A program made the position numbers and the translations under genes. The notes under the pieces were generated by a model. The model worked only from the letters and a program-made list of their open reading frames with translations, ran no database searches and was not told the origin of the DNA. This document shows, piece by piece, positions 3,758 through 32,195 of a stretch of DNA of 37,288 nt (within the stretch, counting starts at the first letter, position 1; each line of letters opens with the position of its first letter). Source of the DNA: Parachlamydiales bacterium. Lineage in GTDB: Bacteria; Chlamydiota; Chlamydiia; Chlamydiales; JAEMRK01. The stretch lies in NCBI GenBank assembly GCA_016463375.1, contig JAEMRK010000012.1:1-37288 (forward strand), given 5' to 3'.

Positions 3758-5923
3758 TTAATTAACCCAATGCAGTTCATCTTGAATAATTGACCAACGC
3801 TTACTAGTTGTCGGCAATGGCTTATTCAAAAGCCAAAAATCAATTTGTCTTTGAGTAAAGTTTGACTGCTTTTGTAAAAAAAGCCAATCATTGACAAATC
3901 GAATAAGGGATTCTGCATTCGGGGGTACAGCATATGATAAATAGACTTTACCCATCTTTTTTGGAAAAGCTATGATGATGTAATCGGGATTATTAACAAT
4001 CCAGGATGTCGCATGGTACATCGACCAAAACAAAACATCGACGTTACTATTTTTTAAGTCGTTCGCATTATTCATCTCTAAAACATTCGCTTTATGAAAA
4101 TATCTTTTCGCTACCGGGACATAATCGTAAATAGCTCCAATTTTTAACCCCGCTTCATCTTGAAGTTTCTCGAGATCCTCAAACTCTTTTTTACGAGATG
4201 CTAGTACCACTAAGACATTTTCTAAGTCTGCATAGGCGCTTGTAAAAGCGACTTGTGTCAGTCTTTCCGATGACATGACAACTGAAGACATCGCAATATC
4301 AAATGCACCATTGATTAAATCTGAATCTAAAGACTGATACGTGAATGGTACAAATTGTATTTTTTCACAATTAAGATCTTTTGCTAATTGATAAGCAAAA
4401 GCTATGTCATAGCCGATTAAGTTATTAGGCCCGTTCCAAAAGCAATAGGGTTTAGTATCAGCGTTATAGCCAACTCTTAACACCTTGCTTTTTATGATCC
4501 GCTCAAGTCCTGATTCATCATGAGCATCACTTGTGCTGACTTGTAAAAATTCAGCAGGAAGAGGTTTATAGACAAGTTTATCAATAGTTACATTTTTGAA
4601 CTCGTCTTGATATACATCTGTCGTCTCTTGACCTATACCTGTTTTTTTTAGACCAAATACTAATGCAATTAATAAAACACAAACAACTAGTATTTTAGTC
4701 AAAATTTTTAATGGTCGTAATTTTAAATGCTTGTAATAGCTATACGCGGTGATGGTACAAAAAAAGTACATTCCCATAACATTTGCAAGTGCTTGAAAAT
4801 TACGAGTGATTGAATTAGCCGAGAAAAAAAGGTCAATTGCTTCTATCGGAATATTCAAAAATTGCGCAAAAAACTGAATCCCATTGATGCCGGAGGCTCC
4901 GCCTCCCCATCCCATGGGAATAACTAATAAATTAGTTAGAAATTCCTTATTACCATTTATTGGAGTGCGGAAAAAAAAAGCTGCGAACATGATAAACAAA
5001 ACAAGTCCTAGATTTCCGATCTGCATAAAATTATAAGATAAAGAAGCTATAGCTTCTGGAATATTGAGATTCTCACCCTCCGGGGCACTCTTTTTTATTT
5101 TTTTAAATTCTTTTGCTAAATCTTCAATATATCCAACTAAAAATGGGATTGATAACGATGCCATTGTTGTTGCAAACACAAGCATTAATACAGGAGATAC
5201 ATTTTTAATCGCATTGCGGTAAGAAATATCGATAAAGGCTGTTAATAAGTAAGGAAGAATAAAAAAGACCAGCGATAAAACGATTATGATGTAAATGGCT
5301 AAGTAAAATAGTAGATGTTGTAGTTCTACAAAATCGATCGTGCCAAGTGTTGAACCTAGTAAACAAAACACAGCTATCGGAGAAAACTTTCCAAGACCTT
5401 TAATAAATCGTAATATTAAAATATTTGTCGTATTCAAAACTGATAAAAAGGTTGACTTGTCTTTAACGAAAATACACACAGAGCCCATGATCAAACCGAA
5501 TATGGCAATAGCCGGAACATAATTATTGACTAAGTCATAAAATGGATTTTGAGGGATCAACAAATCGAATAGATCCAGCAAAGTTTTAGCTGGCGCTTCA
5601 TCTGTTATCACCACAACTGTATTGCGAACTTTGGGTATCAATAGTCCAAATAAATTAACGATCATTAAAACAAATAAAGTTGTTAACGCAATGACCCAAA
5701 ATATAGGCGTTAATAATCGCTTCACAAGATTTGGTGTCAGACTTCCCAAACCATAAATTACACCCGTTGCAATAAATGGAAGTATAACCATCATCAACAA
5801 CATAATATAGGCTTGGCCTATGGGTTGCAGTATTGCGCAATAAGGACCAAAAAATAATCCGGCAAAGATTGCTGCAATAAAAGCGATCAGGGTTTGGTAT
5901 GCGATTGAAATGCGTTTGAACAT
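3758..5923 (-). CDS. Dicarboxylate/glutamate symporter (SDF/DAACS) fused to a periplasmic amino-acid-binding domain
   Basis: A 721-residue two-domain protein. Residues 1-400 follow the sodium:dicarboxylate symporter fold: eight hydrophobic spans, a Ser/Thr-rich HP1 (ATTMASLSIP, 251-260) and a Gly-rich HP2 (MGWGGGASGINGIQ, 337-350). An extra span (~408-425) then leads to a family-3 solute-binding domain (~474-700) beginning LERIIKSKVLRVGYN and carrying SSERLTQVAFTSAY (551-564), the ligand-carboxylate Arg region of that family. Orientation puts the binding domain in the periplasm. The usual TM7 NMDGT and TM8 D..R...N...D residues look replaced (MQIGN; R, Q and M), so cation coupling or substrate may differ. 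One uninterrupted frame makes a true fusion. It probably imports an amino or organic acid. There are 63 bp between it and the upstream methyltransferase gene. Confidence 0.88.
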   Translation of the reverse strand: MFKRISIAYQTLIAFIAAIFAGLFFGPYCAILQPIGQAYIMLLMMVILPFIATGVIYGLGSLTPNLVKRLLTPIFWVIALTTLFVLMIVNLFGLLIPKVRNTVVVITDEAPAKTLLDLFDLLIPQNPFYDLVNNYVPAIAIFGLIMGSVCIFVKDKSTFLSVLNTTNILILRFIKGLGKFSPIAVFCLLGSTLGTIDFVELQHLLFYLAIYIIIVLSLVFFILPYLLTAFIDISYRNAIKNVSPVLMLVFATTMASLSIPFLVGYIEDLAKEFKKIKKSAPEGENLNIPEAIASLSYNFMQIGNLGLVLFIMFAAFFFRTPINGNKEFLTNLLVIPMGWGGGASGINGIQFFAQFLNIPIEAIDLFFSANSITRNFQALANVMGMYFFCTITAYSYYKHLKLRPLKILTKILVVCVLLIALVFGLKKTGIGQETTDVYQDEFKNVTIDKLVYKPLPAEFLQVSTSDAHDESGLERIIKSKVLRVGYNADTKPYCFWNGPNNLIGYDIAFAYQLAKDLNCEKIQFVPFTYQSLDSDLINGAFDIAMSSVVMSSERLTQVAFTSAYADLENVLVVLASRKKEFEDLEKLQDEAGLKIGAIYDYVPVAKRYFHKANVLEMNNANDLKNSNVDVLFWSMYHATSWIVNNPDYIIIAFPKKMGKVYLSYAVPPNAESLIRFVNDWLFLQKQSNFTQRQIDFWLLNKPLPTTSKRWSIIQDELHWVN

Positions 5924-5971: not shown

Positions 5972-5988
5972 AAAAAACAGGTGTTTTT
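5972..5988. terminator. Possible weak hairpin terminator between the methyltransferase and transporter genes
   Basis: AAAAAC and GTTTTT (5973-5978 and 5983-5988) pair around AGGT. It overlaps the stop of the minus-strand methyltransferase gene and is followed on that strand by TTTAAAAAAATATT. The stem is A/T-only apart from one pair, so this is weak. Confidence 0.25.
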
Positions 5989-6499
5989 AAAAGCGATAGA
6001 GAAACAAACTTGTGCTGTAAACATCTTTCATTTGTTGTTCAATGATGGGTTTGTACCCTGGTAAATGAAATGTGTGTGTTAAAAGATATGCCCCTTCCCT
6101 CATTTTTTTCTTAGCTAATCGCTGCATAGCTTTAGGATACAAATAACAAACAATTAAAGACGCGTCTTGAAATGACACTTTAAAAAAATCTTTTCGGGAG
6201 ATTCTTAGATTAGGGTAAGGATAAAAAAGGAGTCTTATTTTAAGAAATAAATAACAAATTGTGGATAGCTCATAACCTTGAATTAAGCAATCTGGATATT
6301 TTTTTGCTAATGCAAAAAGAAGAGTCCCCCATCCACATCCGCACTCAATAATTTTGACTTTGTGCAGCTTGGGAGACAATGCCAAAAGCCTTCTTTTCAC
6401 TTTTGAAGATGTCGGCATCGGTGAGATACCCAATTTCATAGTGTAAAAAAGAAGTGAACTAAAGGCCCAAATAAGTAATAAAAAAAGAATTACGATCAT
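5987..6499 (-). CDS. Membrane-anchored SAM-dependent methyltransferase, FAM173/ATPSCKMT-like
   Basis: 170 residues with one N-terminal membrane helix (~2-20), then a class I methyltransferase core: motif I IIECGCGWGT (50-59) and the acidic ribose-binding end of beta-2, GYE (75-77). The layout resembles the FAM173/ATPSCKMT lysine methyltransferases: a single N-terminal anchor, a P.SSK segment before motif I, YEL after it, and a late HTFHLPGYKP resembling the RFPLPxWxP of that family. In eukaryotes these modify the ATP-synthase c-subunit or the adenine nucleotide translocase; the bacterial substrate is unknown, and a membrane-protein lysine is the natural guess. It starts only 20 bp from the divergent TSUP gene; Met21 (MKLGISPM) is a less likely alternative start because the anchor would be lost. 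Confidence 0.7.
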   Translation of the reverse strand: MIVILFLLLIWAFSSLLFYTMKLGISPMPTSSKVKRRLLALSPKLHKVKIIECGCGWGTLLFALAKKYPDCLIQGYELSTICYLFLKIRLLFYPYPNLRISRKDFFKVSFQDASLIVCYLYPKAMQRLAKKKMREGAYLLTHTFHLPGYKPIIEQQMKDVYSTSLFLYRF

Positions 6500-28493: not shown

Positions 28494-31400
28494 ATGTCTA
28501 ATTCTTCATCTATTAATAATAACTCAATTCCTATTGATATTCCTGATCATCTAAATGAAAACGTCAGCAATACCGCCCCCCTTACTACTATTGGAAATTA
28601 TTTGAATGCTGCATATAATGCGACATCAATTCCTTCGGTTATTACAGGTTTACATAACAAAGTTAACGCAGTCAAAAATAAAGTTGAAGCCGCAAGAACC
28701 ACAGCTAATAACGCGATCGAATCAGTCGGTAATGCCATTCAAACCACAAAAAATGTTTACAATGCCGCTATTGATGTAGCTGGCAAGGCTCAAACAGGTG
28801 CCGTTGAAGCCAAAAAGTTTTATGATTCTTACGCACCCGTGGCTAATTTATTATTAGATAATGCCGGCATTAATATTCCTAACACTGGTATGGCAAATCC
28901 CACGAAGTTTAACTTAGGTGCTTTAGCCACATTTGCTGTTCATCCAGAAAATAAAGCTAATGAAAAAATTGAGGCTGTTAATGGCGTAGGCCCCATTAAA
29001 AATATCCTGATTGAGGACAACCTGCTTGATAGAGCAATCAATGAAGGTCTAGATAAACGATCAGAGTTAAAAAAAGAAAATCCAACTAAGGAATTAGAAA
29101 GAATTACCGAGCAATTTGTTTATAAAAGCTCTTATTTGGGTTCAATGATTTTTGTTCGTGAAAAATTATTTAGAAACGATCCTTTAGAAGCTAATGACTT
29201 CTTTTATAAATCCTTGTTAAAGACCGCGCAAGATAAAGCGACGATTAATGGTGTCATCGATAGAGAAGTTGAAAATAAAGTATTAATCGAGCTGTTTTGT
29301 ACCAAACAATACTTCCGCTTTCCAAAGCTTGCACGCTTCTTGTTTAATTTTACTAACTCAATACTTTTTGACATCATAAATGCAACAGCGTCCAATGCCA
29401 AAGAAAAAATAGAAACTCTTTTCAATAGCAAAGAAAATATCTACAAACTATTGACAATTGAATTAGAGCAAATTTCAAATTACATTCAGCTTAAATTTTT
29501 CCGTCGCAAAGAATTTATTGATAGAGCTAACGGAAAAAATCCTAATAAATTAAATCATGGAGACCTAGAGAAATACGAAGAAGAAGAACTCGTAAAACCA
29601 GAAACCTTAGGTGGCCGTTCAGTCAAAGAACATTGGAATACATTGAATTCTGTTATTGCCAATAACTTTTTAAAAATAGATCCCGTGGGCGCGCCTTTTT
29701 TCAAAAGAATGAGTGACAAGAATGAAAAATGGTTAGAAAACTCAACATATAAGACATTTCACGATAAATTCTTTGGACCATTTGTCTCTCATTTGGTTAA
29801 GCCACTCGTTAAACTTATATTTATCCCTGTGAATTGGCTGAGAGCTAAAATTCTACGAACAACAGTTAAATTAGCTCTTGATCGTATTGAAGTTATTAAA
29901 TCCCCTCTTCAAGACACTGTTAATTCAGATGAATTTACAGTCAAACGTATGCAGGGTATCAATGAATTATTGATGGCGATTTATCAAGAACAAGCTTTAG
30001 ATCAAAATGACAAATCTAAAATTGACGGTAAGCAAGTCGAAAAGCAAGATATAAGCGATCTTAAAAAGCCCTTACACAATATTTTATGCAACTTAGAAAA
30101 ATTCTTAAGTGTAGATCAAAAAAATACCATTAAAGAAATCGGCAATGAATTGAATTTTTTAAATGCCGATAATAATCTTAATGTCGAACAGTGGATTAAA
30201 GAACCTATCAATAAGCAATTTGTTGATGCAGGTATGGACATATTCGAAGACTTATTTCGTCTGTTAAGTCGAGATGGCGTGTTAGGCGATAAATTCACAT
30301 ACGTTGCAGATCTAGCATTAAAATCTTTTGATCCACCAGAAGATTATGAATTAGGTAAAAAATATACACCTCCCGATTACCGCCTTCAAATTAATCACTA
30401 TTCAAATAGCATTATTGGATTAATTAAGAAAATATCTGAGCAAGCGGCTAACGATGCATTTAAAAAATTAGAGACTAATGAAGCCGTTATTGCTGAAACG
30501 CTTATGCAAGAAACTTATACTAAGCTTCAAAATGATAGTTTTAACTATGAAAAAGAAGTTAAAAATGGATTTCATGATGCTGAAAAGACGCTTGATAGTA
30601 TTGGTAGAGGTAGAATATACGATATCAACCAAGTTCAAGGCGCTGCCAAAGTCCTAGAAGATAAGTTTTACAATATCGTTCTAACCAATCAACAGTACCG
30701 TACTCATTTAAATGAGTCTGAAGCCAGCTTTGGAGAAAATACGGTTATCAGTAAACATGGTGATAAAGAAAATAAAAAAATCCATGAACAGACTGTTGCC
30801 CATCTAACAAACTTGGCCACAAAAAATACAAATCAAGTGGCCGCTTTAAAAAATAAAGCAAAAGAGTTATCTAAATTATGTGACGTTTTACCAAACGTAG
30901 ATGCCATAAAAAGGGTGTTGAATAAAATACAAGTTATCAGCAGTGCTGATAAAATCAATATCAATTCACTTAAAACTGCGTTTACAGAGCTTAACGAAGT
31001 CGTCCCAAAAACGGCAAGTTACTTAAAAACGATTTCTGAGCTCCAATCATGTATACTTAAACTTACTCAAAATAGACGAGAATGGAGTAAATTTAAGAAA
31101 ATTCAACAATCCTTTGAAGCTTTGCCATCAAATATCAAAATCATTTTAAAAGATTATGAAGAATACGATGCTGCATCCTTAGCTATCAATCAATTGACAG
31201 TATTGCAAGATAGCATTCAAAGACAGTTACCTAAAGAAGATATTCTCAAACAGTTTAATATATTAGTAAATCTTACTCAAAAAGCTCCACAATCCATATC
31301 TCCTAAAACTCTTAGAGAAATTGAACGAACCATTAAATCACAAGCACCCTTTGTCATTCCTGTTGAAGAAGAGAAATCAACTGGTGAGCGCTTGAAGAAC

Positions 31401-32195
31401 TTTATTTTAGGATCTATTGCTAAATCTGAAAATGACGTTGAAGAAGCTCCCTATCATATAATTCATAGGCTTATATTAACTGCGACTGATGACTTAAATA
31501 AATCGAGAACTAATACAAAGAAAAAAATATTAAGTCTTCGTGCTGATATTTCAAGCTGTATCACTAATAAACTAGTACCAAACGTTAAAGAAATTCAAAA
31601 TTCGACGTATGGCCAGCGTGAAAGTACTTATATATCAAGCTTAAACAAAGATCTTGATTACCTCATAAAAATATTTGAAGAACAACCGTCGGAATTGTCA
31701 GATGCATTTAAATTAAAAATGGAAAATGCTTGCGTCGCATCTAATAATTTAGATATTACGACTAAAGTAATCATTCAACGACACAGTAATGAATTCGATA
31801 AATTCTTTAAAGATGCCGAAAAAATATCTAAAGATTTCAGACTTTGTCTTGCCAAAGATATCGAAATACTCACAAATGCGATGAAAAACGACCTTAAAAT
31901 TGCTAAAATCGATTTAATAGAATTTGACAAGTTGGCTAAAAAAGTGGGCTCTGAGTTCATTAAATACGACATTGTTAGTTTAGGCGATAAGCTTGAAGTG
32001 GCAAGAGGCCCATTAATGAAACGTATTCAAGGTGTCATTGAATCAGTGCTCGAAGTAGCTAAGAAAAAAACGCATTTAGAGCATTTAGTCATTAATCGCA
32101 TGCTCGTACAAACAGCTAATGACCATTTTGAACCGAAGAAAAAAACAGTTTTTGATAATATCCATGACATATTTAGTCGTTCTAAAGCAAACTAG
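28494..32195 (+). CDS. Very large helical orphan protein (1233 residues)
   Basis: I recognise no family. The protein is Lys/Asn/Glu-rich and helical. Residues ~53-115 are an Ala/Lys/Val amphipathic stretch with apolipoprotein-like spacing (NKVNAVKNKVEAARTTANNA, GNAIQTTKNVYNAAIDVAGK). Residues ~160-470 form a denser globular region that includes the only notably hydrophobic segment (SHLVKPLVKLIFIPVNWL, ~436-455). The rest is long helices and coiled coils, with an EEDVEEA-like loop around ~970-985. There is no Sec signal peptide; the Ser/Asn-rich N-terminus (MSNSSSINNNSIPI) would suit type III secretion, but that is speculative. Translation starts behind AAGGA and a strong promoter. The frame is intact and continues closely into the Nudix gene. 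Confidence 0.8.
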   Translation: MSNSSSINNNSIPIDIPDHLNENVSNTAPLTTIGNYLNAAYNATSIPSVITGLHNKVNAVKNKVEAARTTANNAIESVGNAIQTTKNVYNAAIDVAGKAQTGAVEAKKFYDSYAPVANLLLDNAGINIPNTGMANPTKFNLGALATFAVHPENKANEKIEAVNGVGPIKNILIEDNLLDRAINEGLDKRSELKKENPTKELERITEQFVYKSSYLGSMIFVREKLFRNDPLEANDFFYKSLLKTAQDKATINGVIDREVENKVLIELFCTKQYFRFPKLARFLFNFTNSILFDIINATASNAKEKIETLFNSKENIYKLLTIELEQISNYIQLKFFRRKEFIDRANGKNPNKLNHGDLEKYEEEELVKPETLGGRSVKEHWNTLNSVIANNFLKIDPVGAPFFKRMSDKNEKWLENSTYKTFHDKFFGPFVSHLVKPLVKLIFIPVNWLRAKILRTTVKLALDRIEVIKSPLQDTVNSDEFTVKRMQGINELLMAIYQEQALDQNDKSKIDGKQVEKQDISDLKKPLHNILCNLEKFLSVDQKNTIKEIGNELNFLNADNNLNVEQWIKEPINKQFVDAGMDIFEDLFRLLSRDGVLGDKFTYVADLALKSFDPPEDYELGKKYTPPDYRLQINHYSNSIIGLIKKISEQAANDAFKKLETNEAVIAETLMQETYTKLQNDSFNYEKEVKNGFHDAEKTLDSIGRGRIYDINQVQGAAKVLEDKFYNIVLTNQQYRTHLNESEASFGENTVISKHGDKENKKIHEQTVAHLTNLATKNTNQVAALKNKAKELSKLCDVLPNVDAIKRVLNKIQVISSADKININSLKTAFTELNEVVPKTASYLKTISELQSCILKLTQNRREWSKFKKIQQSFEALPSNIKIILKDYEEYDAASLAINQLTVLQDSIQRQLPKEDILKQFNILVNLTQKAPQSISPKTLREIERTIKSQAPFVIPVEEEKSTGERLKNFILGSIAKSENDVEEAPYHIIHRLILTATDDLNKSRTNTKKKILSLRADISSCITNKLVPNVKEIQNSTYGQRESTYISSLNKDLDYLIKIFEEQPSELSDAFKLKMENACVASNNLDITTKVIIQRHSNEFDKFFKDAEKISKDFRLCLAKDIEILTNAMKNDLKIAKIDLIEFDKLAKKVGSEFIKYDIVSLGDKLEVARGPLMKRIQGVIESVLEVAKKKTHLEHLVINRMLVQTANDHFEPKKKTVFDNIHDIFSRSKAN

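Follow-up and report, generated by a model that had tools for sequence, protein, structure and literature searches.

The window, a whole contig of 37,288 nucleotides from a chlamydial assembly of 1.88 Mb (98.9% complete), carries on its minus strand (the original prediction gave no strand) a gene that runs from an ATG start through 721 codons without an internal stop (Table 1). Two Pfam domains passed their curated cut-offs in the translated chain, and no others did: SDF (PF00375) at residues 9-393 (E = 1.1e-34, 120.6 bits against a cut-off of 27.9) and SBP_bac_3 (PF00497) at residues 482-694 (E = 7e-18, 65.1 bits against 26.4). The order along the chain is a DAACS/SDF membrane domain, a ninth helix, a tether and the solute-binding (SBP) domain. 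The original prediction had read the frame as continuous through a symporter, an extra membrane helix and a binding domain, and this architecture was confirmed, with the extra helix (TM9) found in 111 of 112 family members. Neither DctP, DctQ, DctM nor Tct was detected in the window protein by Pfam, nor did the TAXI-type SBP or ESS-family GltS profiles match it, and NCBIfam held no model that fitted it above cut-off.

Table 1. Features of the fused gene and its product, with positions in the window.
Feature	Window positions	Strand	Basis
Whole fused gene, 721 aa	3758..5923	-	Open frame; Pfam; 112 near-full-length one-frame relatives
SDF/DAACS elevator-type membrane domain, residues 9-393	4745..5899	-	PF00375; Foldseek TM 0.72 with 9bgy
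Hairpin HP1, residues 235-272; SSS[G/A]TLP motif replaced	5108..5221	-	AlphaFold2 helices; column counts
TM7, residues 288-317, a broken helix; FMQIGN in place of NMDGT in the window protein, FPxxG in most family members	4973..5062	-	AlphaFold2; alignment columns
Hairpin HP2, residues 326-355; GxAGxPGxG lost, tip shortened	4859..4948	-	AlphaFold2; alignment columns
TM8, residues 361-396; D394, R397 and D405 of canonical transporters missing; N375, next to R374, at the position of the family Arg	4736..4843	-	Alignment columns; AlphaFold2
Ninth membrane helix, residues 404-427	4643..4714	-	AlphaFold2; charge pattern
Predicted periplasmic tether, residues 428-471; low model confidence at 440-448	4511..4642	-	Spacing; AlphaFold2
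Bilobal SBP_bac_3 domain, residues 472-698; carboxylate Arg retained (R554), Ser (S634) at the position of the alpha-amino Asp	3830..4510	-	Pfam; alignment; Foldseek TM 0.88
Conserved C-terminal signature, residues 709-719, RWSIIQDELHW	3767..3799	-	Family alignment

The maximum 19-residue hydropathy in TM9 of the window protein was 2.9. Across the 112 relatives the mean net charge was +3.1 just before this helix and -0.3 just after it, and because positive charge precedes TM9, the positive-inside rule would place the SBP domain in the periplasm and the C-terminus outside. The spacing from TM9 to the SBP domain stayed within 50-62 residues throughout the family, and a C-terminal signature, RWSxxRxVLHW, closed nearly all of the 112 aligned proteins. 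The binding domain is contiguous in both the Pfam match and the AlphaFold2 model, unlike that of channels of the ionotropic glutamate receptor type, which is split by the pore helices.

Relatives were collected with a profile made from a narrow alignment that included the conserved C-terminus; a scan of genome contigs with the single protein gave no match, and a first, broader alignment was too divergent for scanning. In the scan of ~85,000 species genomes, 475 stretches passed tblastn and 80 loci were retained, mostly from metagenome-assembled genomes, in Gammaproteobacteria, Alphaproteobacteria, Bacteroidota, Cyanobacteriota, Desulfobacterota, Myxococcota, Planctomycetota, Acidobacteriota, Nitrospirota and Verrucomicrobiota. 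Alignment of 112 near-full-length, single-frame relatives (31 chlamydial and 81 non-chlamydial) supplied the homologue survey that the original prediction had called for. Fused proteins of ~720 aa occur in about ten phyla, Chlamydiota and Pseudomonadota among them, and in the window's order both domains lay in one ~720-aa frame in roughly 70 of 234 genomes (strong best matches, a minority of them contig-cut). Fused homologues are also found on plasmids of Gammaproteobacteria, where one is annotated as a single CDS (WP_308362721.1). Pseudoalteromonas xiamenensis (annotated as one CDS) and Halioglobus pacificus both carry a fused homologue; the database name for such genes is 'cation:dicarboxylase symporter family transporter'. 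One-frame relatives across the phyla contradict a frameshift or assembly join at codons ~425-470, as well as the idea that the homologues are two separate genes. In the tree a fully supported branch separated Chlamydiota from the other phyla; the window sequence forms a long branch whose exact placement is unsure. Three chlamydial genomes carry the fused gene in tandem or neighbouring copies (G175:C31, G176:C91 and G182:C97), which suggests paralogues with different ligands.

We compared fused and unfused forms in three sets of genomes. In ten whole genomes that carry the gene, every match to the SDF subtype of at least 429 bits was part of a fused frame 717 aa or longer; intact fused copies scored 429-603 bits compared to at most 110 bits for plain SDF genes, and one additional match of 203 bits was a fragment at a contig start. 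Among 274 sampled genomes of one class the subtype was present in 6, always in fused or contig-cut frames, and the one contig-cut frame inspected contained both domains. Within the order of the window, intact fused copies scored 404-1003 bits and plain SDF genes 145 bits at most. The SBP subtype, too, was fused wherever it was found in the searched genomes, the sole exception being a frame of 266 aa close to the start of a contig. Neither half was seen as an intact, unfused copy in the genomes searched. Because the SDF subtype never occurs intact without the SBP domain in the genomes searched, the domain is, as far as these sequences indicate, not an optional add-on there. Separate plain SDF genes were usually also present in the sampled genomes; the window's own genome has an SDF-only gene on another contig (C55) that scored 309.9 bits, compared to 123.2 for the fused gene. 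At two Flammeovirga loci (L061:4638-5843 and L063:4599-5840) the fused gene is directly preceded upstream, in the same orientation, by a plain DAACS gene with the canonical-type motifs NMAG and GTAGVPG. Another chlamydial genome (G012) encodes a canonical DAACS transporter of 639 aa to whose N-terminal side a membrane domain of several helices is added (L138:1101-3020).

Purifying selection acts strongly on both halves. In 12 close pairs dN/dS was mostly 0.01-0.15 in both halves, with a maximum of 0.26 in one SBP comparison; for the SDF half the values were mostly 0.01-0.12, and in most pairs it was constrained equally to or more strongly than the SBP half. Pairwise divergence of the two halves was correlated (Mantel r = 0.85, a value that none of 999 permutations reached; r = 0.94 among Chlamydiota and 0.63 in the remaining members), as expected from one old fusion.

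AlphaFold2 produced both folds for the window protein (pLDDT 83.2, pTM 0.77) and for a gammaproteobacterial member (pLDDT 86.5, pTM 0.79), with HP1, the broken TM7, HP2, TM8 and TM9 modelled in each. With Foldseek, the window model matched 9bgy, an ancestral uncoupled aspartate transporter, at a TM-score of 0.72 normalised to the target, and both models matched amino-acid SBPs, reaching a target-normalised 0.88 to AncCDT-1 (5t0w). The DAACS fold is thus predicted to be retained despite the loss of residues described below.

Residues were mapped onto GltTk and GltPh by alignment at ~20% identity, where local offsets of 1-2 residues are possible, with the GltPh numbering and the roles of its Na+ and substrate residues as reference. 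R276, N310, M311, D312, P356, D405 and Y89 were present in 0% of the weighted family, and five others were infrequent (S278 2%, N401 2%, D394 32%, R397 24%, T314 32%). The Na+-site motif NMDGT of TM7 is absent, with M300 and I302 at the N310 and D312 equivalents of the window protein. In TM8 the counterparts of D394, R397, N401 and D405 are R374, Q377, N381 and M385, so that Asn alone matches, and the window protein is among the few members with Asn at that position. The segment at the HP2 tip has 11-16 residues compared to 17 in GltTk; it is 6 residues shorter in 81 of the 112 proteins and 3 shorter in the window protein, while 23 chlamydial members keep 16 of the 17 residues without keeping the motif. 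For these counts we relied on alignment columns, with a regular-expression motif check as support, since this check proved overly strict on the control set; its two GxAGxPG-like matches sit at residues 145-152, outside HP2. Because nearly all residues for Na+, glutamate and aspartate are gone, neither the substrate nor the coupling of a glutamate symporter can be assumed, and, judged by its residues, this part of the protein is no ordinary glutamate symporter. The original prediction of a glutamate-type symporter with an affinity-raising domain was not upheld, given this loss and the SDF subtype never being intact without the SBP domain in the searched genomes.

Basic residues appear to take the place of the former substrate site in the main, non-chlamydial branch. 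Of its 81 members, 46 have Lys at the S277 position of HP1, 43 have Lys or Arg at the T314 position of TM7, and 77 have Arg at the M395 position of TM8; these positions alternate, and most of the 81 have at least two basic residues. The corresponding positions are neutral in chlamydial members (M254, N304 and N375 in the window protein, with R374 adjacent to the last). As the chlamydial site is neutral and not basic, the substrate of that branch probably differs from that of the main branch and is perhaps an amino acid.

In the binding domain, the carboxylate-binding Arg (R554 in the window protein) is kept in 28 of 31 chlamydial and 45 of 81 other members and is missing in the remaining 36 non-chlamydial ones. 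The Asp that contacts the alpha-amino group has disappeared from 98% of the weighted family. Most non-chlamydial members have Ser or Thr at this position, followed two residues later by Glu, and 19 of the 31 chlamydial members have Glu at the position itself. From this pattern we infer that the SBP ligand carries a carboxylate; in the main branch it perhaps has no alpha-amino group.

Neighbourhood clustering at about 80 loci revealed neither a conserved partner gene nor a conserved kinase or regulator. A Pfam search of 80 neighbours gave weak recurrences only, with Porin_O_P, DUF2252 and a Na/H exchanger found three times each and a glutaminase twice. No ABC permease lies beside the fused gene among the window neighbours tested (TauE, cation efflux, MgsA/RarA and others), and no conserved ABC partner was present among neighbours at the other loci. 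In the window protein, Pfam and the AlphaFold2 model gave no cytosolic signalling or output domain, and the N-terminus and the TM8-TM9 loop are very short in the model. Because it has no cytosolic signalling domain and no conserved partner genes, the fused protein looks self-sufficient.

Several features of individual loci were recorded alongside. At one locus from a gammaproteobacterial metagenome-assembled genome (L076:4882-5892), a gene for a TAXI-type SBP (NMT1_3, PF16868) is found upstream of the fused gene at a distance of 34 bp, so that SBPs of two unrelated kinds adjoin a single transporter. In the window, a gene 63 bp upstream on the same strand (5987-6499, minus) encodes a membrane-anchored protein of 170 aa that has a methyltransferase-like motif (ECGCGWG) and no Pfam match; it was not found within ~1.5 kb of other chlamydial fused copies. 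The window also contains a DsbH gene and a 1233-aa open frame without a Pfam match at E 1e-5 (28494-32195, plus). A gene for the Hc1 chlamydial histone-like protein is present in the window's genome; the same model also matched one Bacteroides control.

We favour, at a probability of about 55%, the reading that the gene encodes a candidate single-chain, SBP-dependent secondary transporter of elevator type, whose solute is probably of the carboxylate type. The periplasmic SBP domain would capture a carboxylate-bearing solute and close, and the closed domain would dock on its own SDF unit, perhaps also on a neighbouring one, by means of the tether of constant length. The solute would then be handed over to the remodelled site of the transport domain, which would move it inward. 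The hand-over to the membrane part, the import direction and coupling without the DAACS Na+ sites are all deduced steps of this scheme. Several findings count against it: chlamydial members, the window protein among them, lack the Arg of TM8 and the Lys of HP1 and TM7; 36 of the 81 non-chlamydial members lack the carboxylate-binding Arg of the SBP domain; and the cation-coupling residues of DAACS proteins are gone with no replacement coupling site recognised. A fuller version, in which a further class of SBP-dependent secondary transporters evolved independently on the DAACS elevator fold, with one chain, an obligatory SBP domain, a rebuilt site that is cationic in most members, coupling without the DAACS Na+ sites, a spread over about ten phyla and no description in the literature searched, we hold tentatively, at slightly under even odds.

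Among the alternatives we place two first, each of them unlikely. The protein could be a sensor or transceptor in which the membrane part has given up transport and the SBP domain signals its ligand to an unlinked partner, by analogy with DctA-DcuS. SBP_bac_3 domains are common sensor modules, and the loss of canonical transport residues would fit; the lack of a cytosolic output domain, the very short N-terminus and TM8-TM9 loop, and the lack of a conserved neighbouring kinase or regulator argue against it. Similarly improbable is an ordinary Na+- or H+-coupled glutamate or dicarboxylate DAACS symporter whose accessory domain raises affinity. The above-cut-off SDF match, the DAACS fold and the database name are consistent with such a symporter, whereas the family-wide loss of nearly all Na+ and substrate residues, the shortened HP2 tip and the better-scoring SDF-only gene in the window's genome are not.

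We rank next, and also consider doubtful, a ligand-gated conductance in which the ligand-closed SBP domain would open a pathway, possibly for anions, in the SDF trimer, by analogy with ionotropic receptors. DAACS proteins already have an anion conductance, and a gated pathway would agree with the loss of coupling residues from a fold still kept under selection, with the basic residues around the transport site of main-branch members and with the obligate tethering of the SBP domain. Gating by an SBP is without precedent in the DAACS fold, however, and the solute-carrying parts HP1, broken TM7 and HP2 are still structured and conserved. Least probable is a decayed transporter that serves merely as a membrane anchor for the SBP domain, or an assembly or frameshift artefact, as the loss of canonical motifs might suggest; the selection on the SDF half, its intactness in 112 relatives and the confident model contradict a dead anchor.

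The nearest precedent for the favoured SBP-dependent transporter is TAXI-GltS (BP0402/0403), in which an SBP serves a glutamate-type secondary symporter that is proposed to depend on it, with fusions of the two in Lachnospiraceae (PMC12344293). Such fusions are rare (14 in InterPro, mostly from one family) and separate genes are the rule; before TAXI-GltS, TRAP and TTT systems were the only known SBP-dependent secondary transporters (PMC12344293). Both TAXI-GltS and the fused family join an SBP, there sometimes covalently, to a glutamate-type and probably elevator-type symporter. GltS, however, belongs to the unrelated ESS family (TC 2.A.27) and its SBP is TAXI-type and N-terminal, whereas the fused family combines the DAACS fold with a C-terminal SBP_bac_3 domain behind a ninth helix, is always fused in the sample, extends over about ten phyla and has lost the canonical site.

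The comparison with TRAP systems in the original prediction was apt: as in TRAP (HiSiaPQM) and TTT, a periplasmic SBP would feed an elevator-type secondary transporter. Here, in contrast, the membrane fold is different, the SBP comes from the ABC amino-acid family, and everything is in one chain with no DctP, DctQ, DctM or Tct. With GltPh, GltTk and the EAATs (PF00375, TC 2.A.23) the family shares the fold, the helix order and the HP1/TM7/HP2/TM8 layout; it differs from them in lacking nearly all Na+ and substrate residues, in its shorter HP2 tip and in the added ninth helix and SBP domain. The SBP domain has the bilobal fold of ABC amino-acid SBPs and of cyclohexadienyl dehydratase (AncCDT-1, 25% identity), but it is membrane-tethered, has no ABC partner gene, has lost the alpha-amino Asp and has gained the C-terminal signature. 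OpuA and GlnPQ are ABC importers with the SBP covalently fused to the translocator; unlike the fused family, which has no nucleotide-binding domain (NBD), they are ATP-driven through NBDs.

No description of an SDF-SBP_bac_3 fusion was found in the open-access literature searched. SBP-dependent secondary transport is known, and the DAACS scaffold appears to be new, making the family a candidate class beside TRAP, TTT and TAXI-GltS. For hundreds of genes the database label 'cation:dicarboxylase symporter' probably misleads. The TAXI-GltS work asked why so few secondary transporters use SBPs and whether an elevator mechanism is a prerequisite, an idea that further SBP-dependent classes would allow to be tested (PMC12344293). 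A candidate class on the best-studied elevator fold bears on this question, and it offers a natural tether, a rebuilt binding site and a large natural data set of 475 candidate stretches confirmed by tblastn in one scan and at least 112 near-full-length members.
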